Part shown: piece by piece, positions 4,194 through 36,587 of the stretch | Layout: each line of letters starts with the position of its first letter | Numbering within the stretch: the stretch's first letter is position 1 | Assembly (NCBI RefSeq): GCF_003007715.1 | Contig: NZ_PXNO01000023.1 | Coordinates: forward strand, 124,001 to 188,000 | DNA: 64,000 bases | Direction: 5' to 3' | From: Marinobacter shengliensis | GTDB taxonomy: Bacteria; Pseudomonadota; Gammaproteobacteria; Pseudomonadales; Oleiphilaceae | The notes under the pieces: generated by a model | The model's database searches: none | Seen by the model: only the letters and a program-made list of their open reading frames with translations | Told to the model about the DNA's origin: nothing | Program-made: the position numbers and the translations under genes

Positions 4194-4301
4194 AGCCATC
4201 CGCTATCCGCTTTGGGTTGGGCCAGTTGTTACAAACCCTTACTGTCACGATCTTAAACATGTATAGAATATGAATCATTATTAATGGGCTGGAGTAAGAT
4301 T

Positions 4302-5396: not shown

Positions 5397-5591
5397 CGGC
5401 CTGATCTATCGAATGGCAATCAGAGGCAATATTCAAACCTGGCGGGCCAGTGAAATCCGGCAGTTGATTTAACGCCGCCCTGAGAGGGGCAGGTGCTGCA
5501 TTCCAGCGGTGCGCAGATTCGCACGCCGGTGGGCATCGCGGTGCCTTGTTTAGCGACTTTGGCGCACCACTGAAAACATGAAGTTCCTGTA

Positions 5592-12478: not shown

Positions 12479-12492
12479 TTGATTTTCATCAA
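12479..12492. promoter_or_regulatory. Perfect FNR/DNR box shared by two divergent promoters
   Basis: TTGATTTTCATCAA is a perfect TTGAT-N4-ATCAA palindrome. A -10 is found at the correct distance on both sides: TATATT (12455-12450, minus) for the TonB receptor and TACACT (12515-12520, plus) for the ABC operon. Both place the box centre about 41.5 bp upstream of the predicted start. One dimer could thus activate both directions. FNR or DNR cannot be distinguished by sequence. Confidence 0.85.
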
Positions 12493-16248: not shown

Positions 16249-16350
16249 TCGAGCTCTGATATTCCCGGTTCTATGACAATTAGCAAGAGCACATTTTGGT
16301 GATTGCGCTATGCTCAAAGTGGCAGTGTCCGTTTTGGGAGAGCGTACTTC

Positions 16351-18336
16351 GTGATCAAAGCACCAGATACCTCGGATGCCTTCGAAATTTTCCCCTGGAA
16401 TCGTAATTTCGAAACCGGCATTCAGGAAATCGATGAGCAGCACAAGGTGCTGGTTAATATCCTTAATCGTCTTGCCTGGCACTTCGCATCGGATAGCTCT
16501 GAACTTTCCGCGGACCACGTTCTTGATGAGTTGCTTTCCTATGCCGCGTTTCACTTCCAGTTTGAGGAAAAGATCTGGAATAAGACACTGGGTGAGGATG
16601 GTATGGCCAGAAATCATCACGATGCCCACCAGATGTTCTTTGTTCAGATTCATGAATTGCGTAAAAGTGGCGAACCCCACGAAGACATACTGACCAATCT
16701 TTTTGATTTTCTGACTCGTTGGTTGGCGTTTCATATTCTGGAGTCTGATCGCCGCATGGCCCTCACTGCCAAGATGGTAGAAAAGGGCTACGCGTTAAAT
16801 GAGGCCAGGGACCGGGTGGACTCAGAACTCAGCGGTTCGGTATCTGTGCTGGTTAATGCGCTTCTGGAGATTTACGGCAAATTGTCTTCAAGCACCATTC
16901 AGTTGATGCGTGAAAAAATGGCGCGCCACAGGGCCGAAGACGATTTGCAGCGAATCCAGAACGAACGCTTGAGTCAGGCTCTGGAAGAACAGGCCAGCGA
17001 ATATCAGCAGCACCTTGAAACCCTGGCCTACAACGATGCCCTGACAGGCCTCTGGAATCGCAACGGGATCATTCGAAGAATCCGCGACTGCATGGCGGAA
17101 GCAGAGAGGGCAGTCAACCCGGCAGCTTTGGTGTCCATCGACCTCGATCATTTTATTGATCTGAACGCGTGCCTTGGGGAGGATGCCGCAGACCGTTTAC
17201 TTGGCCTGTTGGCACGGCGCTGGCTTGATGCCATACCGGCTGATGCCTGTCTGGCCCGGACTGGCGGTGATGAATTTGCGCTTCTGCTGCCTGATGCCAG
17301 CCAGACGGAATCCCGACTCGAGGCCCTTCGGTTGACGGCGCGCCAGCCTTTTGAGCTTGATGGGGCAGAAGTGTCTGTTACTTTTACGGCTGGAGTTGTT
17401 CTATTTCCTGATCAGGCAGTTCAGGATGCTGACATCCTGTTGCGACAGGCAAATAACACGCTTTATCGTGCGAAGCATGAAATGCATGGCGGGTGGTTGT
17501 ATCTGGATGCAGGTGAACAAAACCAGTACCACGCCCGCCAATTGTTACTGGATGACATTCGAAGAGGCCTCAGTCATGAAGAGTTTCGGCTGTTTTATCA
17601 GCCTAAGGTGAACCTTCGGACCGGTGAAGTACTGGGCGTTGAGGCGCTTATCCGCTGGCAACACGCTCAGAAAGGCTTGTTGTCACCGATTCATTTTCTG
17701 CCAGGCATAGAACATCATGCCCTGAACGTTCAGGTTGGCGAATGGGTGTTGCGGGAATCTCTTCAGCAAATGCAGCGCTGGGACAAGCAGGGCGTAGAGT
17801 TGAATGTCAGCGTCAATGTCTCGGCTTTCCAGCTTCAGAGTGGTGATTTTCCAGAACGGCTTAAGCACATCCTTTCAGAGTTCCCGCAGATTGACCCTGC
17901 CAGGCTGGATCTGGAAATCCTGGAGACGGCTGCCCTGGGGGAGCTGGACAGGGCTGTCCAGACAATCAACGAGTGTCGGGAGCTCGGCGTTCGTTTCTCG
18001 CTCGACGATTTTGGTACAGGCTATTCGTCGTTGTCTTATCTGAAGCGACTCCCTGTCGACACTCTCAAAGTGGATCGGGAGTTTGTATCCGGGGCCGACG
18101 GAAGTCGAGAGAACCTTTCAATACTTCGGGGGATTGTCGGGCTGTCGGGTGTATTCGGAAAACAGATCATTGCTGAGGGTGTTGAAACGATCAAACAGGG
18201 CCAGATTCTGTTGTCGCTGGGGTGCCAGCAGGCCCAGGGTTATGCGATGTCTCCCCCTGTTGAGCCGGATCGCCTCCTGGAGTGGATCGCCAACTGGAAA
18301 ACTTTTCCGGAGTGGCAGGCATACGACGGTTTGTGA
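16351..18336 (+). CDS. Hemerythrin-GGDEF-EAL c-di-GMP signalling protein
   Basis: A 661-residue soluble protein. Residues ~1-130 are a bacteriohemerythrin (GIQEIDEQHKVL, FHFQFEEKIW, HHDAHQMF, AFHILESDRRM), which binds O2 or NO at a di-iron site. A coiled linker leads to GGDEF (LTGLWNRNGI and an intact GGDEF) and then EAL with EALIRW, LDDFGTGYSSL, LKVDREFV and AEGVET, all needed for phosphodiesterase activity. Both catalytic halves look intact, though the output is most likely c-di-GMP hydrolysis. I favour the GTG with GGGAG ten bases upstream over an earlier TTG. Its 3' end overlaps the convergent PyrD-like gene by 146 bp. Confidence 0.85.
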   Translation: MIKAPDTSDAFEIFPWNRNFETGIQEIDEQHKVLVNILNRLAWHFASDSSELSADHVLDELLSYAAFHFQFEEKIWNKTLGEDGMARNHHDAHQMFFVQIHELRKSGEPHEDILTNLFDFLTRWLAFHILESDRRMALTAKMVEKGYALNEARDRVDSELSGSVSVLVNALLEIYGKLSSSTIQLMREKMARHRAEDDLQRIQNERLSQALEEQASEYQQHLETLAYNDALTGLWNRNGIIRRIRDCMAEAERAVNPAALVSIDLDHFIDLNACLGEDAADRLLGLLARRWLDAIPADACLARTGGDEFALLLPDASQTESRLEALRLTARQPFELDGAEVSVTFTAGVVLFPDQAVQDADILLRQANNTLYRAKHEMHGGWLYLDAGEQNQYHARQLLLDDIRRGLSHEEFRLFYQPKVNLRTGEVLGVEALIRWQHAQKGLLSPIHFLPGIEHHALNVQVGEWVLRESLQQMQRWDKQGVELNVSVNVSAFQLQSGDFPERLKHILSEFPQIDPARLDLEILETAALGELDRAVQTINECRELGVRFSLDDFGTGYSSLSYLKRLPVDTLKVDREFVSGADGSRENLSILRGIVGLSGVFGKQIIAEGVETIKQGQILLSLGCQQAQGYAMSPPVEPDRLLEWIANWKTFPEWQAYDGL

Positions 18337-19207
18337 CCCTCAAATGAGGCTGCAGAATCCGGTAGCCAGCATCAGGGCCTTTGAATACCAGCGCATTGTG
18401 GACCTGAACTAGATCGGCCCCGGCATTCAATCGGTCCCGATACTGCCTGGATGACTGCACTCCGCCATTGGTCAGAAGGGCAGTGCCGGCAGGCATGCGT
18501 TTTCGGCATAGTTCCAGTGTATGGCAGACTGAGGCTTGTAACTTTTGGCAGTCCCATTGCCGAAAGCTTTTTTCGGTGAACGGTTTGCCAAAATCGAAAC
18601 AGATTAGAATTCCGTCCAGGCCCATGGATGCCAGGTAGGGTAAAAGGCCCAGATCGTTGGTGCTGCCCGGGGTGAGCCGTAGTTTGAATACTATGGGGCA
18701 GTGTTTGCCGGTGAGTTGTGCCAATTGGCCTCGAAATTCGATGAGCGCCACCAGGTTGGCGTGTAGTTTTGGAAACGCCGTGGCAGTCCTCAGCCAGTTC
18801 GGGGCAAGAGTCAGGTAATCGGCTGACCACCAACACGCCTCGATAAGTTCTTTTAACCGGTCAGTTTCCCGTTCTGGCGCTTCGGTTTCCTGTACTGCCA
18901 GTCTAATCCCGGCCAAGGTCATGCGCGGCGGGCCGCCGCCTGCGATCTGTGGTGGCACAGAGCGCTGCCAGCTACCGATTTCGATGGATCCGAACCCGAG
19001 CGCGCCGGCGTTTCTTCCCAGTCTGCCGGTGCGATCGAAACCGGCGGCAATGCCCAACCTGTTGGAAAACGACAGGCCCATACAGGTAACAGGCCGCTCA
19101 GGTGCACGGGCTGCAATCCCAGGCGGCCAGTCAGTCAGCGCCTGTTGGCAGGCATTCTCGAATGCCCTCCGCCGAATGTCGGGAAGTTGGTTTTCTGGCC
19201 TATCCAT
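18191..19207 (-). CDS. Divergent dihydroorotate dehydrogenase-like flavoprotein, last gene of the pqq operon
   Basis: A 338-residue PyrD-fold protein. The class 2 pattern is readable (MGLSFSNRLGIAAGFDRTG, LGFGSIEIGSW, NGGVQSSRQYRDRLNAGADLVQVHNALVFKGP), but active-site motifs differ. The FDKNG loop is FDRTG, and the NxSSPNT strand that binds orotate is LTLAPNWL. It probably binds FMN but is unlikely to make orotate. The last ~50 residues (after residue ~290) are Pro/Ser/Gly-rich, unlike PyrD, and overlap the EAL gene on the other strand, as if an original stop were lost. Its ATG overlaps the SerC-like stop, so it is translated with the pqq-serC operon. Confidence 0.72.
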   Translation of the reverse strand: MDRPENQLPDIRRRAFENACQQALTDWPPGIAARAPERPVTCMGLSFSNRLGIAAGFDRTGRLGRNAGALGFGSIEIGSWQRSVPPQIAGGGPPRMTLAGIRLAVQETEAPERETDRLKELIEACWWSADYLTLAPNWLRTATAFPKLHANLVALIEFRGQLAQLTGKHCPIVFKLRLTPGSTNDLGLLPYLASMGLDGILICFDFGKPFTEKSFRQWDCQKLQASVCHTLELCRKRMPAGTALLTNGGVQSSRQYRDRLNAGADLVQVHNALVFKGPDAGYRILQPHLRVTNRRMPATPEKFSSWRSTPGGDPAQQGETSHNPGPAGTPATTESGPV

Positions 19208-20291
19208 AACGGTTCCTGAAATCCCGCATGAAATCGACAAGGGCACTAACGGCCGCGTCTGTCTGAGCGTTATACAGGCTCGCGCGCAACCCCCCGGCGT
19301 GGCTATGTCCGGACAGATTGAAGAGTCCCCTTTCAGAGGCTTCAGCCAGAAAGGTTTGTCTTAGCGATTCGCTGGCAAGTCCGAAGCAAAGGTTCATCAC
19401 GGAGCGGTGACCCAGTTGAGCGGGGCAATGATAGAAATCATCCTGATCGATGACCGAGTAAACCTGTTCGCTCTGATGCTTATTGTGAATCTGTATGGCG
19501 GGGAGGCCGCCTTGTGCATCAAGCCACTCCAGCATGAGATCCACAAGGTAGATGGCAAACATCAATGGCGTGTTGGTGCGGTTGCCGGCTTCGATCTGTG
19601 ACTCGTAATTGAATACTCGGGGCGTCTCCGGGCGCGCCCGGCCCAGCAGGGTTTCCCTGATAATCACGATGACCAGACCGGCCGGCCCCAGGTTCTTCTG
19701 GGTGCCCGCATAGATCAGCCCGTATTGGTTAATATTGATCGGCCGGGAGAGAAATTCAGAGGTCATGTCGGCAACTAACGGGATGTCATCACAATCCGGA
19801 TCTGCATGAAACTGCACCCCATTTGCTGTCTCGTTGGTCGTAATATGGCAATAGCTCAAGTCCTGAGGGAGGCTCCACCGGTGAGGGGATGGAATGCGGT
19901 CGTATCCGGTGCTGCGAGAGCTGGCAACAGTATGCGCCTTGCCATAGCGCGCGCCCTCCTGCAACGCACGGGCAGACCAGTGACCTGTGTCTACGTATCC
20001 CGCCTTGCCACTGGCTGGAAGCAGGTTCAGCGGAATCAGTGAAAACTGGGCCGATGCGCCTCCCTGAAGGAATAGAATCTGGTACCCGGGTGGCAGATTC
20101 AGTAGTGCCCGCAACCGCATTTTTGCCTGCACCATCAGTTCTGCAAACCGGTCGCTTGAGAAGGGCGTTTCCAATATGGAGTAGCCCTGACCCTGCCAGT
20201 CATACAGTTCCGCTCTGGCTTTGGCCAATACCGACCCCGGTAGGGGGGCAGGGCCAGCCGCAAAATTGAATTTCTTGTTATACCTTTCCAT
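19200..20291 (-). CDS. SerC-family aminotransferase lacking phosphate-binding residues
   Basis: A 363-residue class V PLP aminotransferase clearly of the phosphoserine aminotransferase family (FNFAAGPAPLPGSVL, YAGTQKNLGPAGLVIVI with the PLP Lys, GGLRASLYNA). The substrate-phosphate site is altered. The HR pair of E. coli SerC (His41-Arg42, in EVSHRGKEF) reads ETPFSSDRF here, and the GHR (328-329) reads GHS. The carboxylate Arg of GGMRAS is kept. Reduced affinity for phosphorylated substrates is therefore expected, and a role in serine synthesis is doubtful. It overlaps the membrane-protein gene before it (TGATG) and the PyrD-like gene after it, placing it in the pqq operon. Confidence 0.83.
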   Translation of the reverse strand: MERYNKKFNFAAGPAPLPGSVLAKARAELYDWQGQGYSILETPFSSDRFAELMVQAKMRLRALLNLPPGYQILFLQGGASAQFSLIPLNLLPASGKAGYVDTGHWSARALQEGARYGKAHTVASSRSTGYDRIPSPHRWSLPQDLSYCHITTNETANGVQFHADPDCDDIPLVADMTSEFLSRPININQYGLIYAGTQKNLGPAGLVIVIIRETLLGRARPETPRVFNYESQIEAGNRTNTPLMFAIYLVDLMLEWLDAQGGLPAIQIHNKHQSEQVYSVIDQDDFYHCPAQLGHRSVMNLCFGLASESLRQTFLAEASERGLFNLSGHSHAGGLRASLYNAQTDAAVSALVDFMRDFRNRYG

Positions 20292-20797
20292 CAGAACAGG
20301 TTCAGGCCATGGCTTCCTGCGGCCATGAAAAAGATCAGGGGAAACGAGAGAATGGTATTTGTTCTGGAGGACAGAAAGGTCACCCTGGAACAACGTATCC
20401 GCTCAGCGGCTGGTGCCGCGACAAACCCCAGCACTTTTTTCTGATGTGGCCAGAGTACGAACCACAGATTGAGCACCATGATAATGCCAATCCACGCCCC
20501 GACGCCGATCACTGCGTGATGCCCCTCAAGGGTGAGGGCATCCATGAGTATGCCTCTGTGCCAGAGCATGAGAGCGCCAGAAGCGAGGACAACCAGAGAC
20601 GCATAGCGAAAGGTGCCGTGCTCCTGGTGCATCCTGCGGGTAAGGTCTTCCGTTCTATTGCTCTCATCTTTTGGGTCTATCTGCAACGGTATAAAGCGGG
20701 GCGCTTTAACCACGTTCGCGTAATTATGACCAACCCAGATCAGAGCAAAGACGATATGCAGCCAGCGCATGGCAATGTCCACCAGTGTCCAGCTCAT
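20291..20797 (-). CDS. PuuD/urate-hydroxylase-like membrane protein in the pqq operon
   Basis: A 168-residue membrane protein with four probable helices. RWLHIVFALIWVGHNY resembles the first helix of the PuuD-type membrane domain, and further membrane-side histidines (HQEHGTFRY, ALMLWHRG, EGHHAVIG, WPHQKK) could bind haem. The C-terminal cytochrome c of full-length PuuD is absent. It could be an electron-transfer partner for an operon oxidoreductase such as the PyrD-like protein. The ATG overlaps the stop of the 35-residue gene and its own stop overlaps the SerC-like ATG. Confidence 0.62.
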   Translation of the reverse strand: MSWTLVDIAMRWLHIVFALIWVGHNYANVVKAPRFIPLQIDPKDESNRTEDLTRRMHQEHGTFRYASLVVLASGALMLWHRGILMDALTLEGHHAVIGVGAWIGIIMVLNLWFVLWPHQKKVLGFVAAPAAERIRCSRVTFLSSRTNTILSFPLIFFMAAGSHGLNLF

Positions 20798-20901
20798 GAC
20801 AGGCCTGCCTGAATCCACGCTTTGGTAATCAGATAGAGCACGATGGTCAGCACCATGCCGGCCGCGAGCGTGCCCACCAATGAATCATGGGGGACCTTCA
20901 T
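20794..20901 (-). CDS. 35-residue single-helix membrane peptide in the pqq operon
   Basis: A very short gene: MKVPHDSLVG followed by one hydrophobic helix (MVLTIVLYLI) and a short tail. GAGG lies eight bases upstream of the ATG, 1 bp after the pqqE stop, and its stop overlaps the next ATG (ATGA). The exact packing supports a real gene. It is probably an accessory subunit of the adjacent 168-residue membrane protein. No homologue is recognised by eye. Confidence 0.6.
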   Translation of the reverse strand: MKVPHDSLVGTLAAGMVLTIVLYLITKAWIQAGLS

Positions 20902-20902
20902 G

Positions 20903-22036
20903 TTATACCTCCGTGGGTACCCACCCGGCTGCCCGGGCGATCAGTTTTTCCGGGTGCTGGCGGGTTTTCAGCGCACGGTCCACGGCATCCGTTACCATGT
21001 AGTGATGCGGTGATTTGCTGCAGGCCGGGTCGGGATTGGCGGCATCCCCGGTCAAAAGCATGGCCTGGCAGCGGCAGCCGCCGAAGTCTTTTTCTTTCTC
21101 TGAGCAACTTCGGCAGGGTTCTTTCATCCAGCTATCACCGCGATACAAATTGAAGCTCTCCGACTGGTGCCAGATCCAGCTCAGGTCACGGTCCCGAACG
21201 CTCGGGAAATTCAGCCCCGGCAGGGTGCGGGCTTGTGAACAGGGGAGTACTATGCCGTCTGGTGCAATGGTCAGGTGAATGCTGCCCCAGCCGTTCATAC
21301 AGGCCTTGGGGCGGCCTTCGTAGTAATCCGGAATAACGAAGAAAATGGTCATACTGCCGGCCAGTCGCTCCCTTGCTTCGGCAACTTGCGCCTCCGCTTT
21401 CTCCAGAGCCTCTCGGGTAGGCATCAATTGATCCCGGTTGACCAGCGCCCAGTTGTAGTACTGCACATTGGCAAGCTCCAGGTATTCCACGCCTATGTCG
21501 GCCGCCAGATTGATAATGTCCGGCACCTGGTGAATGTTGACACTTGAAACGGGAACATTGAGCACCATCGGAAAGCCGAGCGACTTGATCTCTCTGGCCA
21601 TCTGGAGCTTCTTTTCGTAACAATCTACTCCGGCCAGCCAGTGGGCGGTTTCCGGATTACTGGACTGGAAGCCCAGCTGTATATGGCGCAAACCGGCTTC
21701 TTTCAGGTTCTCCAGTCGTTTTCTGGTAAGCCCGATGCCCGATGTGATCAGGTTGGTGTAATACCCCAACCCATTGGCTTCAGCTACCAGCTCTTCCAGA
21801 TCTTTTCTCAGTGTGGGCTCACCGCCGGAGAAGCCGATCTGCATCGCCCCCATGTTGCGGGCATCGTGAATAACCTGCTTCCACTCATTGGTGCTCAGTT
21901 CATCCGGATGGTTATCCAGATCCGTGGGGTTGCTGCAGAACGCGCATTTGAGCGGGCATTTGTAGGTCAGCTCAAGCAACAGCCAGACGGGGTTGCCCTG
22001 ACCATCAAGATTCAGGTTGGATCCAGCCTTTGCCAT
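20903..22036 (-). CDS. pqqE: PqqE radical SAM enzyme (PqqA glutamate-tyrosine cross-linking)
   Basis: A 377-residue radical SAM/SPASM enzyme. The SAM cluster motif is KCPLKCAFC near the start, IGFSGGEPTLR is the SAM loop, and auxiliary-cluster cysteines are in CMNGWGSIHLTI, IVLPCSQA, CRSCSEKEKDFGGCRC and DPACSKSPHH. It joins Glu and Tyr side chains of PqqA. The ATG is preceded by GGAGG and lies 32 bp inside pqqD. It is followed by the 35-residue membrane gene rather than other pqq genes. Confidence 0.92.
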   Translation of the reverse strand: MAKAGSNLNLDGQGNPVWLLLELTYKCPLKCAFCSNPTDLDNHPDELSTNEWKQVIHDARNMGAMQIGFSGGEPTLRKDLEELVAEANGLGYYTNLITSGIGLTRKRLENLKEAGLRHIQLGFQSSNPETAHWLAGVDCYEKKLQMAREIKSLGFPMVLNVPVSSVNIHQVPDIINLAADIGVEYLELANVQYYNWALVNRDQLMPTREALEKAEAQVAEARERLAGSMTIFFVIPDYYEGRPKACMNGWGSIHLTIAPDGIVLPCSQARTLPGLNFPSVRDRDLSWIWHQSESFNLYRGDSWMKEPCRSCSEKEKDFGGCRCQAMLLTGDAANPDPACSKSPHHYMVTDAVDRALKTRQHPEKLIARAAGWVPTEV

Positions 22037-22298
22037 AGCATACCTCCAGGAACTGGTGAACACGGGGCTCAATGAAGTCGGGTGCTTCCGAGAACAGGCC
22101 GGAAAGTTCGGCGACGATGTCTGACACCGTTCTGGCACCGTCACACCGGTTGAGGATTTCACCGGCGGTGGGGTTCAGTTTTACAATGCCTTCGGGATAC
22201 ATCAGCACGTAAGCTTGCTGTGATTCTTCCCAGCGAAACATGAAGACCGGTGCGATGCGGAATCGGGTAAGACCAGTGTAGTTGTTTGAATTGGTCAT
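22005..22298 (-). CDS. pqqD: PqqD peptide chaperone
   Basis: A 97-residue RiPP-recognition protein. It has the winged-helix pattern of PqqD: FRIAPVFMFRWEESQQAYVL, YPEGIVKLNPTAGEILNRCDG and TVSDIVAELSG. It delivers PqqA to PqqE; the two genes overlap, consistent with a complex. Length is normal. A GGGAG precedes the ATG. It lies 73 bp after pqqA. Confidence 0.9.
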   Translation of the reverse strand: MTNSNNYTGLTRFRIAPVFMFRWEESQQAYVLMYPEGIVKLNPTAGEILNRCDGARTVSDIVAELSGLFSEAPDFIEPRVHQFLEVCYGKGWIQPES

Positions 22299-22371
22299 TG
22301 GCTGCTCCCAGGGGCTTACAAGGCGAAGGGCTGTCCCTGCAAGAGGAAGAGGCTCACAGGGACAGAATTGA

Positions 22372-22446
22372 TCAGCGAACGTAAACGTACGCAGTTACTT
22401 CAAAGCCAAGCCGCAGGTCTTTGAAGTCAGGGTCGGTCCATTTCAT
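22372..22446 (-). CDS. pqqA: PqqA precursor peptide (24 aa)
   Basis: A 24-residue peptide starting MKWTDPDFKDLRLGFEVTAY. The conserved LRLGFEVT core carries Glu16 and Tyr20 in the E-x-x-x-Y spacing that PqqE cross-links to build PQQ. The tail (VYVR) is slightly different from common FASR/FYTR endings. pqqD and pqqE follow at once, but pqqB and pqqC are not here. Too short for usual gene calling, it is easily missed. Confidence 0.92.
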   Translation of the reverse strand: MKWTDPDFKDLRLGFEVTAYVYVR

Positions 22447-22649
22447 TTTATCACCTGTATTTGTTATGAATGTTTATGGCGGCGGAATAACTCCGCCCAT
22501 GTCCACTCTAGGGTTGGGTGACGCTGCAAAGGAATGGTACTTTGGACCTAATTTTCTGGATCTTAGGTGTGATTTCTGAGGGCTTTTGGGTTAATAGAAT
22601 GGGCTTCAGATCGACTGTCTGAAAAGTGAAATTTTAATATGTATATTTT

Positions 22650-22663
22650 TTGATTTTTATCAG
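22650..22663. promoter_or_regulatory. FNR/DNR-like box upstream of the pqq operon
   Basis: TTGATTTTTATCAG matches TTGAT-N4-ATCAA at nine of the ten fixed positions. It is about 200 bp upstream of pqqA. A TAAAAT -10-like element on the minus strand (22636-22631) is closer to the box than the activating -41.5 position requires, so activation, repression or chance are all possible. Confidence 0.4.
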
Positions 22664-22667
22664 TTGC

Positions 22668-23165
22668 TCACCTGGATTTCGCCATTAGCTGACGGACAGA
22701 CAAATCCCACTCCAGACTATCCAGAAGATTCTTCAAAGCCAGCCCCAGCTCGGTGTCCCCTTCAATCACCAGGCGCCGCTGGAAAAACAGCTGGTCCGGG
22801 TCTTGCCGGCGCTCTGCAAGAGTCTTGAAGGCTGCCAGCGACCCCCGAATGGTCGCTTCGCCTGGGCCTTCCACAACGCGAAGCCGGCCTGCCCAGAAAC
22901 CGATGGTAATACCTGGTTGACCTCCATTGACCTCCAGCCGAATTGTGCGGCCTTCAAAATCATCGAATTCGCCCTCAGCCAGCGCTTCTGCAAACAGCCG
23001 GTTTAGCGGGGCTTCGGCAACCAGTTGTTTGAAGCTAACGGGCACGTTGCGGTCGATGGTGTCCAGTAGTGGCGTCGGGGAGGGGAGGTATTCTTTCAGA
23101 ACCGCGATGGATTGCTCCAGTAATGGGCTGTGCAAAGACGCGATGGGAGGCAGTGAAAAGGCCAT
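22668..23165 (-). CDS. ubiT: UbiT-type SCP2 lipid-binding protein for O2-independent ubiquinone synthesis
   Basis: A 165-residue SCP2-domain protein resembling E. coli UbiT/YhbT. TIRLEVNGGQPGITIGFWAGRL and ATIRGSLAAFKTLAE follow the SCP2 strand-helix pattern, and QDPDQLFFQRRLVIEGDTELGLALKNLLDSLEW is the conserved C-terminal part (the RRL...GDTELG section is diagnostic). UbiT works with the peptidase-like UbiU/UbiV hydroxylases to make ubiquinone without oxygen. Those partners are not next to it here. Its place directly after narXL fits supply of quinone for nitrate respiration. Confidence 0.82.
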   Translation of the reverse strand: MAFSLPPIASLHSPLLEQSIAVLKEYLPSPTPLLDTIDRNVPVSFKQLVAEAPLNRLFAEALAEGEFDDFEGRTIRLEVNGGQPGITIGFWAGRLRVVEGPGEATIRGSLAAFKTLAERRQDPDQLFFQRRLVIEGDTELGLALKNLLDSLEWDLSVRQLMAKSR

Positions 23166-23209
23166 GTTCAACTCCGGGCAGGACGACAACCCGCCCAGAG
23201 TATCAAAAG

Positions 23210-23234: not shown

Positions 23235-23894
23235 TCAGCCCTTGTGGAGACCTTCTTCTACGGCCCAAACGGCTACTTCAACCCGCGAGCGCAGGTTGAG
23301 TTTCTTGAGCAGGTGCTTTACGTGCACTTTTACCGTGCCGTCGCTGATGTCGAGCTTGCGGCCGATCATCTTGTTGGAGAGGCCTTCGGCGATCAGGCGC
23401 AAAATGTCTTTTTCCCGCGGCGTCAGGCTGTCGAAGTCCGGCCGGGATGACTGCTGCGGTTTGTTGGAACGCAGGGCCTGGGCCAGTAACGTTGTTAGCC
23501 GGTCACTGATGACCATTTTGCCAACAGCCGCCTGGTGTAACTGGGCGATCATATCTTCCGGCTCCATGTCTTTCAGCAGGTAGCCGTCGGCACCGGCACG
23601 CAGGGCGGCAACCACATCGTCTTCCTGGTCAGACACGGTAAACATGACAATACGCGAGCTGATGTTCTGGTCCCGCAGGTGTTTGAGAGCTTCAATGCCG
23701 TCCATCTCCGGCATGTTCAGGTCCATCAGGATCAAATCCGGCTCGGTTTCCAGGGCCAGCTTGATGCCGTCGGCGGCGTTGCTTGCCTCGCCGATCACTT
23801 CCATGTCGTCTTCCATGCCGATCAACTGCTTGATGCCCTGTCGCAGCAGGGGGTGGTCGTCAATCAGCAGTATACTTGCGGGTGTCTCAGCCAT
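23235..23894 (-). CDS. narL: NarL nitrate response regulator
   Basis: A 219-residue LuxR/FixJ-type regulator. The receiver has the acidic pocket (LIDDHP) and the phospho-acceptor Asp58 in [13 protein letters not shown]. The C-terminal HTH is [43 protein letters not shown], shown here only by its key parts: [15 protein letters not shown] and [14 protein letters not shown]. It acts downstream of NarX (29 bp away). Likely targets in this window are the 7-2-7 sites before moaA and narG. Confidence 0.93.
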
Positions 23895-23923
23895 GGTTTC
23901 TCTCGTTGATGTTGGTGTTTGGG

Positions 23924-25780
23924 TCAGGCCGGTGAAGATTCGGTAGGAATCAGGTTACGGCTTTTGGGAACGAATGTTAATGTCACTTCCACGCCGCCTT
24001 CGTCCCGGTTATCAACCTTTACCTTACCCCCGAGCGTTCGGGCGCGGTCCTGCATGATCACCAGGCCGTAATGGTTAACCGGCTGGTCGCCGCCGGGCAG
24101 GCCCTTGCCGTTGTCGCGAATACTTGCCCGAACCTGCGGAGACTCGAACAGCACCTTAACGGATATGACCGTAGCGTCGGCATGCTTGACGGCGTTTGCC
24201 AGTCCCTCGCGGATAATCTGCAGGGTATGGATTTCCTCGTTTGGCGACAGCGTCTGAGGCGGCAGGTTGTATTCAAAGTCCACCGGGTGGCCCAGTCTCT
24301 CGGAAAACTCGTCGATGGTCTTGCGCAAAGCCGTGGCCAGGTCTGGTGTGTCCAGTTTCAGGCGGAACGTGGCCAGTAGCTCACGCAGTTGCCGGTAGGC
24401 GCTGTTCAGGCCAGTACTGAGCTCTTCCAGAATGTCGTCGTGGATGGGTTTCTGCTCGCCCGTGATATTGAGCCGGCGCAGCCGGGTTACCTGCATCTTC
24501 AGGTAAGACAACGACTGGGCCAGTGAATCGTGCAACTCCCGGGCGATCACGGTGCGTTCTTCGGCCAGGGTCAGCTGCTGTTCCTCGGTTATTTGCCGTT
24601 CCAGGAAAATGGCGGTTGCCAGTTGGTCGGTCAGGGTCTCCAGCAGCCGGCGAGAGGTGGCGGACAACCCTTTGGCTGCCGGGTACCAAACCTCCAGGGT
24701 GCCGAGCAACTGGCTGGGTGTGCGGATGGGAAGTAATAAACGACGGCCATCGTTGTTCTCCAATGGCATTTCATCGTAGACCTCGGGGGTCACCAGGCAG
24801 GCATTGCAGTGATGGTCGCGACAGTAGAACGGCCGTTTGTCCGTGGCCGTGGTAATGGCTTCCACAGGCTCTGCGGATTCCTTGTCGTGCAGGAACAGAC
24901 GGATCGGACCAATGCCCAGCAGCAGCTCCAGCTCCTGCAGCATGGGAATGGCACCATTACAGAGGTCATGATTGGCAAACAGGTCTCTACTGGCCGAATG
25001 CATCACCTGCAGGGCCTGGTGGCTGACTTCCAACTCTTCAGTTTTCTGCCGGGCCTTGGCTTCCAGTTCGTAGTAGGTCAGGGCCAGTTCGCTGGTCATC
25101 TGGTCGAAGGCCTGGCCTAGTTGTGCCAGCTCGTCTGCACCTTTCAGGTCGGCTTTCCGGGAGAAATCTTTCTCGCCAACGGCGCCGGCGATGGCCACGA
25201 GTTTTCGCAGGGGGCGAAGGATCCGGTTTTTCAGGTCGTAGAACAGGGCGATCACGATCAGCACCGAGAACACCATGCTGATGATCTGAATCAGGTGCAG
25301 CAGATCAACACGTGCTTCTGTGCGCTGTTCCAGCATAGTCACCAGGCGGTCAACTTCCTGGATGTAGTCCTCCACAGCCTGAACCATAGCCGGGGTGATG
25401 GGTGTGCCTACTTCATGTTGTTCAAGGGCTGGTTTAAGTTCGTCCTGCCATGCCGCCAGCATCTGACGGTACTGTCGTGCCAGAGGGTGGTCGTCTGCGC
25501 CGGGAACCGAGCGAAGGATGGCGGTGTCCTCAAGGCGGCGCTCATAATCATTGATGCGTGCGCCTGAGGAAGCCCGTCCATTTTCGTAATCTTCGGTGGC
25601 AGAACGGGCAATTAACTGGAAGGCGCCCATTCGCAGCGCTCCGGCCAGGTTGATGGCCGTGGCATTGCCTTCAATGCTGTTGGAAACCGCCAGGGTTGTA
25701 GACATGCTGACGATAGCGGTCAGCACGATGGCGCCGATCACCACAGCGAGTCGGTTTACTAGCGGACTTCTGGATGTCAT
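23924..25780 (-). CDS. narX: NarX nitrate/nitrite sensor histidine kinase
   Basis: A 618-residue sensor. One N-terminal helix leads to the P-box (residues ~37-55, [18 protein letters not shown]), the nitrate-binding signature of NarX/NarQ. A four-helix periplasmic region, second helix and HAMP follow, then a central region with the NarX-type cysteines (CRDHHCNAC). The HisKA_3 motif is [17 protein letters not shown] and the ATPase has GLANAVKHA and NGKGLP. It phosphorylates NarL, encoded 29 bp downstream, to activate nitrate respiration genes. Confidence 0.93.
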
Positions 25781-27354: not shown

Positions 27355-30300
27355 ATGAGTCATTTAATCGACAAACTGAATTACTTCAGGAAGAAGCGCG
27401 AGCCGTTCGCGGGCGGCCACGGCGAAACCCATGAAGTCAGTCGCGAGTGGGAAGACAGCTACCGCCAGCGCTGGCAGCACGACAAGGTTGTGCGTTCCAC
27501 CCACGGCGTAAACTGCACCGGCTCCTGCAGCTGGAAGATCTACGTCAAGTACGGCCTGGTTACCTGGGAAACCCAGCAGACCGACTACCCCCGTACCCGC
27601 CCAGACCTGCCTAACCACGAGCCCCGCGGCTGCCCTCGGGGTGCCAGCTATTCCTGGTACATGTACAGCGCCAACCGCCTGAAGTACCCGCTGATGCGCA
27701 AGAGCCTGATGAAGCTCTGGCGTGCGGCCCGTATTCAGTTCAACGACCCGGTACAAGCATGGGCGTCCATTGTTGAAGACCCCAAGAAAACCGCCGAGTA
27801 CAAGCCCCGCCGCGGTATGGGCGGTTTTGTCCGTTCCAATTGGGACGAGGTCAACGAGCTGATTGCTGCCTCCAACGTCTACACCGCCAAGAAGTTTGGT
27901 CCGGACCGCATCATCGGCTTCTCGCCGATTCCGGCCATGTCCATGGTGTCCTATGCCGCCGGTAGCCGTTACCTGTCGATGATTGGCGGCGTGTGCATGA
28001 GCTTCTACGACTGGTACTGCGACCTGCCGCCGGCCTCCCCACAAACCTGGGGCGAGCAGACCGACGTGCCGGAATCCGCTGACTGGTACAACTCCGGCTA
28101 CATCATTGCCTGGGGTTCCAACGTGCCCCAGACCCGTACCCCGGACGCCCACTTCTTTACCGAAGTGCGCTACAAGGGCACCAAGACCGTTGCCATTACC
28201 CCGGATTACGCCGAAGTCTCCAAGCTGTCTGACGAGTGGTTGAACCCCAAGCAGGGCACCGATGCCGCCCTGGGCATGGCCATGGGCCACGTGATCCTGA
28301 AAGAGTTCCACGTCGACAAGCCCAGTGAATACTTCACCGACTACGTGCGCCGTTACACCGACATGCCCTACCTGGTCATGCTGGATGAAAAGGACGACGG
28401 CAGCTATGTGCCGGGCCGTTTCCTGCGCGCCAGTGATCTGGTGGACGGACTGGGTGAGGAGAACAACCCGGAATGGAAAACCATCGCTATTGACGAGAGC
28501 ACTGGCGAGCTGACCGCACCGAACGGCTCCATCGGCTATCGCTGGGGCGAGAAGGGCAAGTGGAACCTGAAGCAGACCGCCAAGGGCTCCGATGTAAACC
28601 TTCAGCTGTCCATGGTCGAGAAACACGACGACGTTGTGGACGTTGCCTTCCCGTACTTCGGTGGTATTGAGCACGACCACTTCAAGCACGTGGAAATCAA
28701 GGACATCCTCAAGCACAAGCTGGGCACCCGCAAGGTCAAGCTGGCTGACGGCTCCGAAGGCCGTGTGGTCACCGTTTACGACCTGATGGTCGCCAACTAC
28801 GGCATCAGCCGCGGCCTGGGTGATGACGACGGAGCTTCTTCCTATGACGAAGTGAAGCCCTACACTCCGGCCTGGCAGGAAAAGATCACTGGCGTACCCG
28901 CCGAGAAAGTGATCCGGATTGCCCGTGAGTTTGCGGATAATGCCGACAAGACCAAGGGCCGTTCCATGGTCATCGTGGGTGCCGGTATGAACCACTGGTA
29001 CCACATGGACATGAACTACCGTGGCCTGATCAACATGCTGATCATGTGTGGTTGTATCGGCCAGAGCGGCGGTGGCTGGGCCCACTACGTTGGCCAGGAA
29101 AAACTGCGCCCGCAGACTGGCTGGCAGCCGTTGGCGTTTGGCCTGGACTGGCAGCGCCCGCCACGCCACATGAATTCTACCTCCTTCTTCTACGCCCATT
29201 CCGGCCAGTGGCGTTACGAGAAACTGGGTGTCGACGAAATCCTGTCGCCGCTGGCGGACAAGTCCAAATTCAGTGGCAGCCTGATCGACTACAACGTGCG
29301 CGCCGAGCGCATGGGCTGGTTGCCCTCTGCGCCCCAGCTCAACCGCAACCCGCTGGGTATTGCGGCGGAAGCCGAGAAGGCTGGCATGGACGTCTCCGAT
29401 TATGTGGCCAAGTCCATGAAGGACGGCTCCCTGGCCTTCGCCAGTGAGGATCCGGAAGCGCCGGAGAACTGCCCGCGCAACCTGTTCATCTGGCGCTCCA
29501 ACCTGCTGGGCTCGTCCGGCAAGGGCCATGAGTACATGCTCAAGTACTTGTTGGGCACCAAAAACGGCCTGCAAGGCAAAGACCTGGGCGTGGAAGGCGG
29601 TGCCAAGCCGCAAGAGGTCAAGTGGCGCGACGAAGCCCCGCAGGGCAAGCTCGACCTGCTGGTGACCCTGGACTTCCGCATGTCCACCACCTGCCTGTAT
29701 TCAGACATCGTTCTGCCGACCGCTACCTGGTACGAGAAGAACGACCTGAACACCTCAGACATGCACCCGTTCATCCATCCGCTGACCGCCGCCACTGATC
29801 CGGCCTGGGAAGCGCGCAGTGACTGGGAAATCTACAAGGGCATTGCCAAATCCTTCTCCAAGGCGGCTGAGGGCCACCTGGGTGTCGAGAAAGATGTGGT
29901 GACCCTGCCGCTGCTGCACGATGCGCCGGCGGAACTGGGCCAGCCGTTCGATGTGAAGGACTGGAAAAAAGGTGAATGCGACCTGATCCCGGGCAAGACT
30001 GCGCCCAACTTCATCACCGTTGAGCGGGATTACCCGAACACCTACGCACGCTTCACCTCGCTTGGCCCGCTGATGGACAAGTTGGGTAACGGTGGCAAGG
30101 GCATCAACTGGAACACCGAGAAGGAAGTCAACTTCCTGAAGGAGTTGAACTACACCCATCTGGAAGGTGCCAACGCGGGTCGTCCGAAGATTGAAAGCGC
30201 CATTGATGCCGCGGAAGTGATTCTGACCCTTGCGCCGGAAACCAACGGCCAGGTTGCCGTGAAGGCGTGGGCCGCGCTGTCTGAAATGACCGGCCTGGAC

Positions 30301-31098
30301 CACACCCATCTGGCGAAGAACAAGGAAGAGGAGAAAATCCGCTTCCGGGACATCGTGGCGCAACCGCGCAAGATCATCTCCAGCCCGACCTGGTCTGGTC
30401 TGGAAGACGAGCATGTGTCCTACAACGCTGGCTACACCAACGTGCACGAGCTGATTCCCTGGCGCACCCTGACCGGCCGCCAGCAGTTCTACCAGGACCA
30501 CGAGTGGATGCGCGCCTTCGGTGAAAGCCTGCTGGTGTATCGCCCGCCCATCAACACCAAGGCGATTGAGAGCATGCAGGATCAGCGCAGCAACGGTAAC
30601 CCGGAGAAAGCGTTGAACTGGATCACGCCGCACCAGAAGTGGGGTATTCACAGTACCTACAGCGACAACCTGTTGATGCTGACCCTCTCCCGCGGTGGCC
30701 CTATCGTGTGGATGAGTGAAGACGATGCCAAAGACATCGGGGTTGAAGACAACGACTGGATCGAGCTGTTCAACAGTAACGGTGCCATTGCGGCCCGGGC
30801 GGTGGTCAGCCAGCGGGTGATGCCTGGCATGGTGATGATGTACCACGCCCAGGAACGCAACGTGAACGTGCCGGGCTCTGAAATTACCGGTACCCGGGGC
30901 GGCATCCATAACTCGGTCACCCGTGTGTGCCCGAAACCGACCCATATGATCGGTGGCTATGCCCAGTATTCCTACGGCTTCAACTACTACGGCACCGTAG
31001 GTTCCAACCGGGACGAGTTCGTGGTGGTCCGCAAGATGAAGAACGTGGACTGGCTCGACGGTGAAGGCAATGACTATGCTCAGGAGGCAGTAAAATGA
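27355..31098 (+). CDS. narG: Respiratory nitrate reductase alpha subunit (molybdopterin)
   Basis: The 1247-residue catalytic subunit of the membrane-bound nitrate reductase facing the cytoplasm. The FS0 [4Fe-4S] ligands are in HGVNCTGSCSW and the following Cys-Pro (RGCPRGASYSW). The Mo ligand Asp is in YCDLPPASPQTWGEQTDVPE. It reduces nitrate to nitrite with a bis-MGD cofactor. GAGAGAGA precedes the ATG. It overlaps narH by 4 bp (ATGA), and the order narGHJI followed by ppiC matches Pseudomonas-type nar clusters. There is no Tat leader beyond the vestigial N-terminus usual for NarG. Confidence 0.97.
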   Translation: MSHLIDKLNYFRKKREPFAGGHGETHEVSREWEDSYRQRWQHDKVVRSTHGVNCTGSCSWKIYVKYGLVTWETQQTDYPRTRPDLPNHEPRGCPRGASYSWYMYSANRLKYPLMRKSLMKLWRAARIQFNDPVQAWASIVEDPKKTAEYKPRRGMGGFVRSNWDEVNELIAASNVYTAKKFGPDRIIGFSPIPAMSMVSYAAGSRYLSMIGGVCMSFYDWYCDLPPASPQTWGEQTDVPESADWYNSGYIIAWGSNVPQTRTPDAHFFTEVRYKGTKTVAITPDYAEVSKLSDEWLNPKQGTDAALGMAMGHVILKEFHVDKPSEYFTDYVRRYTDMPYLVMLDEKDDGSYVPGRFLRASDLVDGLGEENNPEWKTIAIDESTGELTAPNGSIGYRWGEKGKWNLKQTAKGSDVNLQLSMVEKHDDVVDVAFPYFGGIEHDHFKHVEIKDILKHKLGTRKVKLADGSEGRVVTVYDLMVANYGISRGLGDDDGASSYDEVKPYTPAWQEKITGVPAEKVIRIAREFADNADKTKGRSMVIVGAGMNHWYHMDMNYRGLINMLIMCGCIGQSGGGWAHYVGQEKLRPQTGWQPLAFGLDWQRPPRHMNSTSFFYAHSGQWRYEKLGVDEILSPLADKSKFSGSLIDYNVRAERMGWLPSAPQLNRNPLGIAAEAEKAGMDVSDYVAKSMKDGSLAFASEDPEAPENCPRNLFIWRSNLLGSSGKGHEYMLKYLLGTKNGLQGKDLGVEGGAKPQEVKWRDEAPQGKLDLLVTLDFRMSTTCLYSDIVLPTATWYEKNDLNTSDMHPFIHPLTAATDPAWEARSDWEIYKGIAKSFSKAAEGHLGVEKDVVTLPLLHDAPAELGQPFDVKDWKKGECDLIPGKTAPNFITVERDYPNTYARFTSLGPLMDKLGNGGKGINWNTEKEVNFLKELNYTHLEGANAGRPKIESAIDAAEVILTLAPETNGQVAVKAWAALSEMTGLDHTHLAKNKEEEKIRFRDIVAQPRKIISSPTWSGLEDEHVSYNAGYTNVHELIPWRTLTGRQQFYQDHEWMRAFGESLLVYRPPINTKAIESMQDQRSNGNPEKALNWITPHQKWGIHSTYSDNLLMLTLSRGGPIVWMSEDDAKDIGVEDNDWIELFNSNGAIAARAVVSQRVMPGMVMMYHAQERNVNVPGSEITGTRGGIHNSVTRVCPKPTHMIGGYAQYSYGFNYYGTVGSNRDEFVVVRKMKNVDWLDGEGNDYAQEAVK

Positions 31099-32672
31099 AA
31101 ATCCGTTCCCAAGTCGGCATGGTGCTGAACCTGGACAAGTGCATTGGTTGCCACACCTGTTCCGTCACCTGCAAAAACGTATGGACAAGCCGTGAAGGCA
31201 TGGAATACGCCTGGTTCAACAACGTCGAAACCAAGCCTGGCATCGGCTACCCGAAAGAATGGGAGAACCAGGACAAGTGGAAGGGCGGCTGGATGCGCGA
31301 CAGCTCCGGCAAAATCCGCCCCCGCATCGGCGGCAAGTTCCGGGTACTGGCGAACATCTTCGCCAACCCGGACCTGCCGGAAATCGATGACTACTACGAA
31401 CCGTTTGACTACGACTACCAGCACCTGCACACCGCCGGTGATGTGAAGCACCAGCCGGTCGCCCGGCCACGGTCGCTGATCTCTGGCGAGCGCATGAAGA
31501 AAATCGAATGGGGCCCGAACTGGGAAGAAATCCTGGGCACCGAGTTTGCCAAGCGCCGCAAAGACAAGAACTTTGATCAGGTGCAGGCAGACATTTACGG
31601 CCAGTTCGAAAACACTTTCATGATGTACCTGCCGCGTCTGTGCGAGCACTGCCTGAACCCGGCGTGTGTAGCCAGTTGCCCGAGCGGTGCCATCTACAAG
31701 CGCGAAGAAGACGGCATTGTGCTGATCGACCAGGACAAGTGCCGCGGCTGGCGGATGTGTGTCTCCGGCTGCCCGTACAAGAAGATCTACTTCAACTGGA
31801 AAACCGGCAAATCCGAGAAGTGCATCTTCTGCTACCCGCGTATCGAAGCCGGTCTGCCGACCGTCTGCTCCGAGACCTGTGTAGGCCGTATCCGCTACCT
31901 CGGTGTGCTGCTGTACGACGCAGACCGCATTGAAGAAGTGGCCAGCGCCCCGGGCGAGCACGAGCTGTATGAAAAGCAGCTGGAAATCTTCCTGGACCCG
32001 TTCGACCCGAAAGTGATCGAACAGGCGAAGAAAGACGGCATCCCGATGAACGTGATCGAAGCCGCCCAGCAGAGCCCGGTGTACAAAATGGCGGTGGACT
32101 GGAAACTGGCCCTGCCGCTGCACCCGGAATACCGCACCCTGCCCATGGTGTGGTACGTGCCGCCGCTCAGCCCGATCCAGTCTGCGGCGGAAGCCGGCAA
32201 GGTCGAGTTCGACGGCGTACTGCCGAAGATCGAAAGCCTGCGGATTCCGGTCAAGTACCTGGCGAACCTGCTGACCGCCGGTGACGAGAAGCCCATCGTT
32301 CGCGCTCTGAAGCGGATCATGGCTATGCGTTTGTACAAGCGTGCCGAGACCGTGGAAGGCAAGGAAGACCTGCGAGCGCTGGAGGAGTGCGGCCTGACCA
32401 AAGCCCAGGCGGACGAAATGTACCGCTACCTGGCCATCGCCAACTACGAAGACCGCTTCGTGATTCCGACCAGCCATCGCGAGCTGGCCAAGGAAGCTTT
32501 CCCGGATGCGGACGCCTACGGCGAGCGTGGTGGTTGTGGCTTTAGCTTCGGCGACGGCTGCAACGGTGGTGACAGCGAGTTCAGCCTGTTCGGTGGCAAG
32601 AAGCAGACCACCAGCATGGTCAGCAAGCTGGCGACCGTAAAGCAGGTCGACCCGAAACAGCTGCAGGATTGA
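31095..32672 (+). CDS. narH: Respiratory nitrate reductase beta subunit (iron-sulfur)
   Basis: A 525-residue electron-transfer subunit with four clusters. The cysteine groups are CIGCHTCSVTC near the N-terminus, CEHCLNPACVASCPSG, CRGWRMCVSGCPYKK (Trp replaces a Cys, giving the [3Fe-4S] cluster as in NarH), and CIFCYPRIE with CSETCVGRIRYLG. It passes electrons from the NarI haems to NarG. A Cys/Gly-rich tail (GGCGFSFGDGCNGG) is near the C-terminus. Confidence 0.97.
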   Translation: MKIRSQVGMVLNLDKCIGCHTCSVTCKNVWTSREGMEYAWFNNVETKPGIGYPKEWENQDKWKGGWMRDSSGKIRPRIGGKFRVLANIFANPDLPEIDDYYEPFDYDYQHLHTAGDVKHQPVARPRSLISGERMKKIEWGPNWEEILGTEFAKRRKDKNFDQVQADIYGQFENTFMMYLPRLCEHCLNPACVASCPSGAIYKREEDGIVLIDQDKCRGWRMCVSGCPYKKIYFNWKTGKSEKCIFCYPRIEAGLPTVCSETCVGRIRYLGVLLYDADRIEEVASAPGEHELYEKQLEIFLDPFDPKVIEQAKKDGIPMNVIEAAQQSPVYKMAVDWKLALPLHPEYRTLPMVWYVPPLSPIQSAAEAGKVEFDGVLPKIESLRIPVKYLANLLTAGDEKPIVRALKRIMAMRLYKRAETVEGKEDLRALEECGLTKAQADEMYRYLAIANYEDRFVIPTSHRELAKEAFPDADAYGERGGCGFSFGDGCNGGDSEFSLFGGKKQTTSMVSKLATVKQVDPKQLQD

Positions 32673-32682
32673 GGAGCAAGTT

Positions 32683-36573: not shown

Positions 36574-36587
36574 GTGATTTTTATCAA
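36574..36587. promoter_or_regulatory. FNR/DNR box before nosR
   Basis: GTGATTTTTATCAA matches TTGAT-N4-ATCAA at nine of ten fixed positions. A start 41.5 bp from its centre would be near 36622, 10 bp before the GTG of nosR and 34 bp before an internal ATG at 36656. The -10 is weak. Confidence 0.6.

Follow-up and report, generated by a model that had tools for sequence, protein, structure and literature searches.

What does a set of pyrroloquinoline quinone (PQQ) genes make when pqqB and pqqC are missing from it? The question is raised by an operon in a 64,000-nucleotide stretch of the Marinobacter shengliensis genome (assembly GCF_003007715.1, contig NZ_PXNO01000023.1, positions 124,001 to 188,000; the whole stretch is called the window here, and positions are counted from its first letter). 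The operon runs on the minus strand from 22446 to 18191 and consists of pqqA, pqqD, pqqE, tm35 and the genes of a PuuD-like, a SerC-like and a PyrD-like protein. Neither pqqB nor pqqC lies within 18191-22446, so this is not a canonical pqqABCDE operon. PQQ synthesis is considered to require O2 in its final steps. Taken together, the data below make it likely that the operon is a cassette under anaerobic control that makes PQQ without oxygen. The proposal of anaerobic PQQ synthesis itself is not new here but was published earlier. A seven-gene minus-strand operon with a canonical E-x-x-x-Y PqqA had also been described in an earlier note made from the letters of the window, and the coordinates and family models bear out that description. 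The genes are the following.

22372-22446, minus strand: pqqA2, a 24-residue precursor (MKWTDPDFKDLRLGFEVTAYVYVR) with the E-x-x-x-Y motif; Pfam PqqA and TIGR02107 above cut-off.
22005-22298, minus strand: pqqD2, the peptide chaperone; TIGR03859, 83.7 bits (cut-off 46).
20903-22036, minus strand: pqqE2, the radical SAM/SPASM Glu-Tyr cross-linking enzyme, of the cassette clade; TIGR02109, 518 bits (cut-off 381).
20794-20901, minus strand: tm35, a single-pass membrane microprotein predicted from a 35-codon open reading frame (ORF), with the motif P[HYF][DE][ST]..GT...G..LT..L.
20291-20797, minus strand: PuuD-like protein, 168 residues with four long membrane helices; partial match to Pfam Urate_ox_N, 46 bits (cut-off 26.9).
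19200-20291, minus strand: SerC-like aminotransferase dependent on pyridoxal 5'-phosphate (PLP), with a re-modelled side-chain pocket; NF003764, 443 bits (cut-off 253), and Pfam Aminotran_5.
18191-19207, minus strand: PyrD-like flavin mononucleotide (FMN) TIM-barrel protein lacking the orotate loop; Pfam DHO_dh, 40 bits (cut-off 27).

A gap of 73 bases separates pqqA from pqqD, and from pqqD onward neighbours abut or overlap (1-32 bases), the ATG of pqqE lying inside the 3' end of pqqD. PqqA2 carries E-V-T-A-Y, and together with PqqD2 and PqqE2, both over their curated cut-offs, it forms a PQQ precursor system. The EVTAY tail is common to all cassette PqqAs read; the canonical PqqA of the same genome has EVTMYFANR. 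At the other end of the operon, the PyrD-like ORF extends about 50 codons past its conserved domain (18191-18336), into the 3' end of a convergent downstream gene (16303-18336, GGDEF/EAL-like by eye). This C-terminal extension is a low-confidence tail in the structure model, and close relatives end at residue 289.

The genome of the window (4.17 Mb, 28 contigs) holds a canonical cluster on another contig, C19, with pqqB (31800-32708), pqqC (31060-31764), pqqE (29652-30734) and a canonical pqqA. The absence of pqqB and pqqC recorded in the earlier note is therefore true of the operon and not of the genome, in which a search found both, and the window holds a second pqqADE set. Judged by its family matches and by the PqqE tree described below, PqqA2, PqqD2 and PqqE2 make up a pqqADE set that is genuine though distinct.

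The same gene order, tm35 excepted, is found in three other genomes of the genus, with identities of 100% for PqqA, 83-89% for PqqE, 83-87% for the PuuD-like, 64-67% for the SerC-like and 48-53% for the PyrD-like protein. With order and proteins conserved in three congeners, the operon is not a product of chance. Among 38 genomes (its own and 37 relatives), 4 encode a close PyrD-like protein, and the same 4 carry a second PqqE above cut-off, adjacent to it. Hereafter we call the six genes pqqADE-puuD-serC-pyrD, in the order in which the window operon has them, the cassette. In a wider survey, 84,980 named genomes were scanned with an alignment of the PuuD-like protein and the best 80 of 90 loci were kept; these span alpha-, beta- and gammaproteobacteria, and the closest named relatives by PuuD-like gene are mostly Marinobacter. 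Alongside the PuuD-like gene stand pqqE in 79 of the 80 loci, the SerC-like gene in 78, pqqD in 74, the PyrD-like gene in 73 and pqqA in 72; the single locus without pqqE is truncated at the end of its contig, and of the 8 loci lacking pqqA, 6 begin near a contig end. The association of serC- and pyrD-like genes with pqqADE, whose conservation the earlier note had named as a check, is thus conserved. As the loci were found through the PuuD-like protein, these counts show that this PuuD-like type accompanies pqqADE, not how frequent the cassette is. When the class was sampled evenly (369 genomes), the cassette-type PuuD-like protein was found in 5 (257-278 bits), flanked in all five by pqqD, pqqE and the SerC-like and PyrD-like genes; within the genus it occurs in 12 of 124 genomes. 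A lower-scoring PuuD-like family (56-159 bits) is present in 118 further genomes of the class sample.

PqqE provides the main clue regarding the product. In a tree of 129 PqqE sequences, one split (support 0.997) holds all 83 PqqEs adjacent to a PuuD-like gene and none of the 46 others. This tree leaves out L084 and copies with matches shorter than about 300 residues; L069 and L078 share one genome, and two canonical copies (L069, L070) enter twice via other loci. For genome-wide tests the genomes of 50 of the 80 loci were used, and the window's own genome and three relatives were added for the counts of pqqC, dehydrogenases and PqqE. A PQQ-dependent alcohol dehydrogenase of the methanol/ethanol type is above cut-off in all 53 cassette genomes, pqqC is present in 51 of 53 and pqqB is above cut-off in 47 of 50. 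Of the 369 genomes in the class sample, 54 have pqqB, among them 5 of 5 with the cassette (4 of 4 versus 53 of 368, P 0.0004, when the window's own genome is left out). A single PqqE match (E 1e-100) was found in 13 of the 53 genomes, and in 11 of these (G045, G054, G055, G057, G063, G065, G069, G071, G072, G073 and G085) it is the cassette PqqE, with pqqB and pqqC present. The remaining two are G061, which has the canonical copy and a cassette copy cut by a contig end, and G059, which has the cassette copy and no pqqB or pqqC. In 14 of the 80 loci, 7 of which belong to the 11 genomes, the sequence fetched around the cassette also holds both pqqB and pqqC; in L080 the order is pqqD-pqqE-puuD-serC-pyrD-pqqB-pqqC. 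Because the cassette PqqE is the sole PqqE found beside pqqB and pqqC in 11 genomes, its product most simply feeds PQQ. This is our main argument, and from it we infer that PQQ is the product of the cassette. There, the canonical route should also be supplied by PqqE of the cassette type, provided that no second PqqE has escaped sequencing.

Cassette-only PQQ producers, with the cassette and without pqqB and pqqC, were sought among the tested genomes; G048, G059 and G060 came into consideration and none was decisive. In G048 the contig breaks at the cassette, and no pqqE was found in this genome either. G060 has no pqqB, a partial pqqC and one PqqE above cut-off plus one partial, and the stretches read contain masked N. 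G059 has the cassette and PQQ dehydrogenases.

There are other data consistent with an anaerobic role, a side of the locus that the earlier note did not touch. An Fnr/Anr box was defined as TTGATN4ATCAA within 350 bases upstream of pqqA and was scored in the 77 of 85 loci that have pqqA and 350 bases before it, the window being scored apart. A perfect box precedes pqqA in 18 of the 77 loci and a box with at most one mismatch in 29; the other 48 have at least two mismatches. Control frequencies were 0.08% (perfect) and 1.4% (at most one mismatch) in first-order resamplings of the same stretches, and 1.0% and 2.9% in random stretches from the same loci. When dissimilar upstream sequences are grouped, 16 of 65 groups contain a perfect box. 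Upstream of canonical Marinobacter pqqA genes, none of 5 regions has a box at one mismatch or fewer. Five Marinobacter-type loci (L067, L068, L073, L074 and L075) have the perfect box TTGATAACAATCAA at a distance similar to that of the one-mismatch box in the window, which stands among genes of anaerobic metabolism:

22650-22663, minus strand: putative Fnr/Anr-type box CTGATAAAAATCAA, one mismatch, located roughly 210 bases before pqqA begins.
22668-23189, minus strand: ubiT, accessory factor of O2-independent ubiquinone synthesis, an upstream neighbour; NF047962, 120.6 bits (cut-off 46.9).
23235-25780, minus strand: narL and a narX-like gene, a nitrate/nitrite two-component system, upstream neighbours; NarL above cut-off with NF007935 (342 bits), the NarX-like protein at 473 bits with NF007896, below its cut-off of 578.
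27358-31059, plus strand, opposite to the operon: narG match.

Within 9 kb of the cassette, ubiU or ubiV is found in 19 of the 80 loci, ubiT in 16 and a Crp/Fnr-type regulator in 8. UbiV is encoded in 34 of 36 cassette genomes versus 0 of 44 pqqB-positive, cassette-free genomes of the class sample (Fisher P 1e-20, with cases and controls drawn differently and kinship uncorrected). Among near-complete genomes of the genus, narG is present in 10 of 10 with the cassette versus 77 of 110 overall (P 0.02, kinship uncorrected), and in 9 of the 10 it lies within about 10 kb of the cassette; the two cassette genomes of the genus without narG are incomplete (58 and 82%). Two further Fnr-type boxes occur in the window, at 12479-12492 and 36574-36587, one of them perfect (TTGATTTTCATCAA) and the other off by one base, and matches at two mismatches or fewer number 38 across the window versus 19.6 expected. 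Between pqqA and the box, at 22460-22580, a block TTAG...GTACCATT...CCTA-AGTG is kept in 8 Marinobacter-type loci. It was considered as a NarL site and fails to match the NarL heptamer.

What could the additional enzymes do? Residues of the SerC-like protein were counted in 64 of 66 clustered ORFs, those matched by BLASTP to the window protein, with E. coli SerC as reference. K198 (the PLP lysine), D174, W102, H328 and R335 are kept in all 64, which makes the protein a PLP class V aminotransferase. S40, H41, R42 and R77 are kept in none and R329 in one; S-H-R at 40-42 is replaced by P-F followed mostly by T or S. We take the lost H41, R42, R77 and R329 to be phosphate-binding and R335 to bind the alpha-carboxylate. 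Since the phosphate residues are lost while R335 and the PLP lysine are kept, the protein would be an aminotransferase for another amino acid. The PyrD-like protein was treated in the same way (55 of 59 clustered ORFs matched by BLASTP, reference E. coli PyrD). K217, D65, G63, E83, G85 and G311 are kept in 55 of 55, and the top fold match of its structure model is E. coli PyrD (1f76, E 2e-16), as for an FMN barrel. The loop 111-117 is absent from all 55, N246 is kept in none, S175 in 12 (it is W in the window) and N172 in 44, the window copy not among them. The loop (NRMGFNN) is the orotate loop of PyrD and S175 the catalytic residue. PyrD equivalog models give the PyrD-like protein 32-74 bits versus cut-offs of 200-619. 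By its residues, the PyrD-like protein is an FMN barrel predicted to act on another substrate. An additional PyrD-type match in the same genome, on contig C27, is probably the housekeeping enzyme.

PuuD urate hydroxylase consists of an eight-transmembrane-helix domain and a cytochrome c domain. The PuuD-like protein has a single cysteine and no cytochrome c domain, and its Urate_ox_N match covers positions 165-238. H14, H24, H60, H118, H163 and many polar residues are invariant in 31 of 31 aligned sequences. Its model consists of four long helices (pLDDT, predicted local distance difference test, 85.8). A heme-b membrane four-helix bundle was considered for it: Foldseek gave no match to the model at E 0.001, and the rows with cytochrome b in VIA-align have Z 8-10, inside the range of unrelated helical bundles. 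For tm35, ORFs with P[HFYPL][DE][STNHM] followed by a hydrophobic stretch were sought between pqqE and the puuD-like gene. They were found in 65 of 84 loci versus 16 of 1680 size-matched control stretches. Positions beyond the search motif are also conserved in these 65 (G 55, T 56, G 58, L 65, T 58, L 63, R 46). Judged by this conservation, tm35 is a real microprotein, although several loci of Marinobacter and Hyphomicrobium yielded no such ORF and the window copy has no Pfam match. A gene for an M48 membrane peptidase lies near the cassette in 19 of 80 loci (Pfam-checked in three) and none lies in the window operon; the peptidase is a candidate for freeing the cross-linked pair. In L091, L096, L098, L099, L104 and L142 it is followed by a creatininase-type amidohydrolase (Pfam-checked in L091), possibly a further step of the pathway.

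Some loci depart from this arrangement. L103 (Bradyrhizobium nanningense) and L112 (Paramagnetospirillum caucaseum) have the variant order pqqD-pqqE-pqqA-puuD-like. Just two cassettes were found when plasmids were searched with the PuuD-like protein, one on a plasmid of Acidibrevibacterium and one on pHY1 of Methylovirgula; in the DNA search of plasmids, most of the matches listed (20 of 53) fall in pqqE. Occurrence on two plasmids makes mobility of the cassette probable. In the former case (L165), the whole cassette and an M48 peptidase are carried by a 45.8-kb mobilizable plasmid of Acidibrevibacterium fodinaquatile, and the PyrD-like protein is annotated as hypothetical yet matches DHO_dh. 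In the latter (L166, pHY1 3980-5559), the CbpA precursor and CbpB radical SAM enzyme, another pair of the ribosomally synthesized and post-translationally modified peptide (RiPP) kind, lie a short way upstream of the cassette, a Crp/Fnr regulator separating the two.

The following route is proposed. PqqE2 would cross-link Glu and Tyr of PqqA2 while PqqD2 holds the peptide, and a protease, such as the M48 membrane peptidase of other loci, would release the cross-linked diamino acid. The SerC-like, PyrD-like and PuuD-like/tm35 proteins may then carry out ring oxidation and closure in place of the O2-using PqqB and PqqC. Water could be the oxygen source and the quinone pool the electron partner of this oxidation, with the PuuD-like/tm35 membrane pair passing electrons to ubiquinone; both are guesses, as are the nature and order of the steps (transamination or PLP-aided imine chemistry, flavin-driven dehydrogenations). 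The SerC-like enzyme might exchange nitrogen that ring closure restores, or its PLP might serve another step. The canonical pqqABCDE would work under air and the cassette during nitrate respiration, like UbiTUV for ubiquinone.

Two readings had been left side by side in the earlier note. The one that places pqqB and pqqC elsewhere and has the extra genes aid the supply of PQQ is supported by the genes on C19, the dehydrogenases in 53 of 53 genomes and the sole PqqE of 11 genomes. The other was a different RiPP-derived cofactor; in the form considered here, the SerC-, PyrD- and PuuD-like proteins would turn the PqqE2 product into a non-PQQ quinone or a related redox compound for anaerobic respiration. 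This would account for a dedicated PqqA2, a PqqE2 clade apart from the canonical one and the retention of canonical pqqB and pqqC in nearly all cassette genomes tested, as well as for an aminotransferase, which is not known to be part of PQQ chemistry. We nevertheless consider it unlikely, mainly on account of the 11 genomes that have pqqB and pqqC and in which the only PqqE match is of the cassette type. The presence of these two genes in the same stretch as the cassette (14 of 80 loci) and the ubiquity of PQQ dehydrogenases also speak against it, and no user of another cofactor is evident among gene clusters present in at least 6 loci, several of which were not identified. Moreover, by the earlier note's own rule, the finding of pqqB and pqqC elsewhere counts against the second reading, which little now favours. 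The residue data do fit its picture of an aminotransferase and a flavoprotein with a link to an electron acceptor in the membrane, but for PQQ rather than a new cofactor. It is also improbable that the cassette makes a sister quinone without O2 from the PqqE cross-linked peptide, for example with nitrogen exchanged by the SerC-like protein, for anaerobic quinoproteins; the two cofactors may then alternate with oxygen in genomes holding both clusters.

Another doubtful possibility is a low-oxygen booster, in which the cassette still needs PqqB (or traces of O2) and replaces or assists only the last oxidation, the PqqC step. The frequency of pqqB (47 of 50) and pqqC (51 of 53) in cassette genomes, and their presence in 14 of 80 cassette stretches, would be expected of such a booster, whereas the Fnr boxes, ubiTUV and narXL, and G059 with its cassette and PQQ dehydrogenases and no pqqB or pqqC found, would not. 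Very little can be said for the view that the genes behind a spare pqqADE copy are ordinary ones of serine and pyrimidine metabolism: the SerC-like protein does score above the NF003764 cut-off, but the order is conserved across 80 loci, none of 64 sequences keeps H41, R42 or R77 and none of 55 the orotate loop, the PyrD equivalog scores fall far short of their cut-offs and the search for a housekeeping counterpart, which covered PyrD, found a further match of that type on C27. A decaying duplicate without function of its own is equally hard to credit. The PyrD-like protein evolves fast and is missed in 7 of 80 loci, and the SerC-like one is absent in two; yet PqqA is identical and PqqE 83-89% identical in genomes where the PyrD-like protein is at 48-53%, and the Fnr boxes and the microprotein are conserved.

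Oxygen-independent PQQ synthesis by the cassette thus remains the likely explanation, and several observations weigh against it. Both nitrogens of Glu and Tyr are retained in PQQ, which makes an aminotransferase odd; this is the weakest point of the mechanism. As pqqB and pqqC are present in almost all cassette genomes, genomics cannot separate PQQ from a sister compound. The sole-PqqE genomes are drafts or metagenome-assembled genomes of unstated completeness in which a second PqqE could be unsequenced, and G059, the only genome with the cassette, no pqqB or pqqC and no obvious break, is metagenome-assembled too and may be incomplete. The limits of the UbiV comparison count here as well. Thirteen genomes of the relatives sample carry pqqB and narG and no cassette; with many nitrate-respiring PQQ producers of the genus lacking it, the cassette is not required for that lifestyle. 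Finally, the two loci without a SerC-like gene are L103 and L112, and among the 7 of 80 in which no PyrD-like gene was found, L112 has none nearby.

Synthesis of PQQ without O2 by pqqAED-puuD-serC-pyrD clusters was suggested in 2025 from co-regulation and gene content, and the passages on these clusters (PMC12423496) name Hyphomicrobium, Halomonas sulfidovorans, Stutzerimonas, Methylophaga and Azoarcus as carriers, not Marinobacter. According to the same paper, Hyphomicrobium denitrificans grows on methanol with nitrate, transcription of its second pqq copies (Hden_0551-0553) is far lower in SoxR/sHdrR mutants, as for denitrification genes, and K. pneumoniae and P. aeruginosa, with canonical pqq genes only, do not produce PQQ anaerobically (PMC12423496). 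For PQQ-dependent methanol dehydrogenases in full anoxia, the relevant passage of a 2024 paper suggests function only with carried-over or supplied PQQ (PMC11102522). A search by title, preprints not covered, found no further paper proposing O2-independent PQQ synthesis by such clusters, and none of the titles found on Marinobacter, PQQ, denitrification and anaerobiosis concerned this cassette. Within the literature searched, the additions made here from sequence comparison appear to be Marinobacter as a carrier, the counts, the argument from genomes with a sole PqqE, the Fnr boxes, the contrast in UbiV, the residues lost from the active sites, the microprotein tm35 and the cassettes on plasmids. 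If the proposal is true, the cassette would explain the supply of PQQ enzymes in oxygen-free habitats and resolve the puzzle of growth on methanol and nitrate. It would also represent a new O2-free mode of oxidising a peptide-derived ring, and a PQQ route for anaerobic fermentations.

Comparison with known systems places the cassette as follows. The SerC-like protein shares family, PLP lysine and alpha-carboxylate arginine with the phosphoserine aminotransferase SerC and differs in H41, R42 and R77 (lost in 64 of 64) and R329 (lost in 63), so that it does not qualify as that enzyme. Nor does the PyrD-like protein as a class 2 dihydroorotate dehydrogenase: it shares the FMN barrel, K217 and the glycine motifs with PyrD, but loop 111-117 is absent in 55 of 55 and S175 is kept in 12. 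The PuuD-like protein has part of the membrane domain of PuuD (Urate_ox_N, 165-238) and, with 168 residues, one cysteine and no cytochrome c part, is not a urate hydroxylase of that type. With canonical pqqABCDE the cassette shares pqqA, pqqD, pqqE and presumably the chemistry up to the cross-linked peptide, whereas it has no pqqB or pqqC, another PqqE clade, an Fnr-type box, three extra proteins and a microprotein. The Hyphomicrobium-type clusters have the same genes and gave rise to the same proposal, and in Hyphomicrobium they are co-regulated with denitrification and ubiTUV; tm35, active-site changes, Fnr boxes, sole-PqqE genomes and counts are not mentioned in the account of the cluster in PMC12423496. 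The UbiT-UbiU-UbiV pathway has no enzymes in common with the cassette, and its U32 peptidase-like proteins are neighbours, not parts. However, the logic is the same, an anaerobic substitute for O2-dependent steps kept beside the aerobic route, often in a shared gene neighbourhood.

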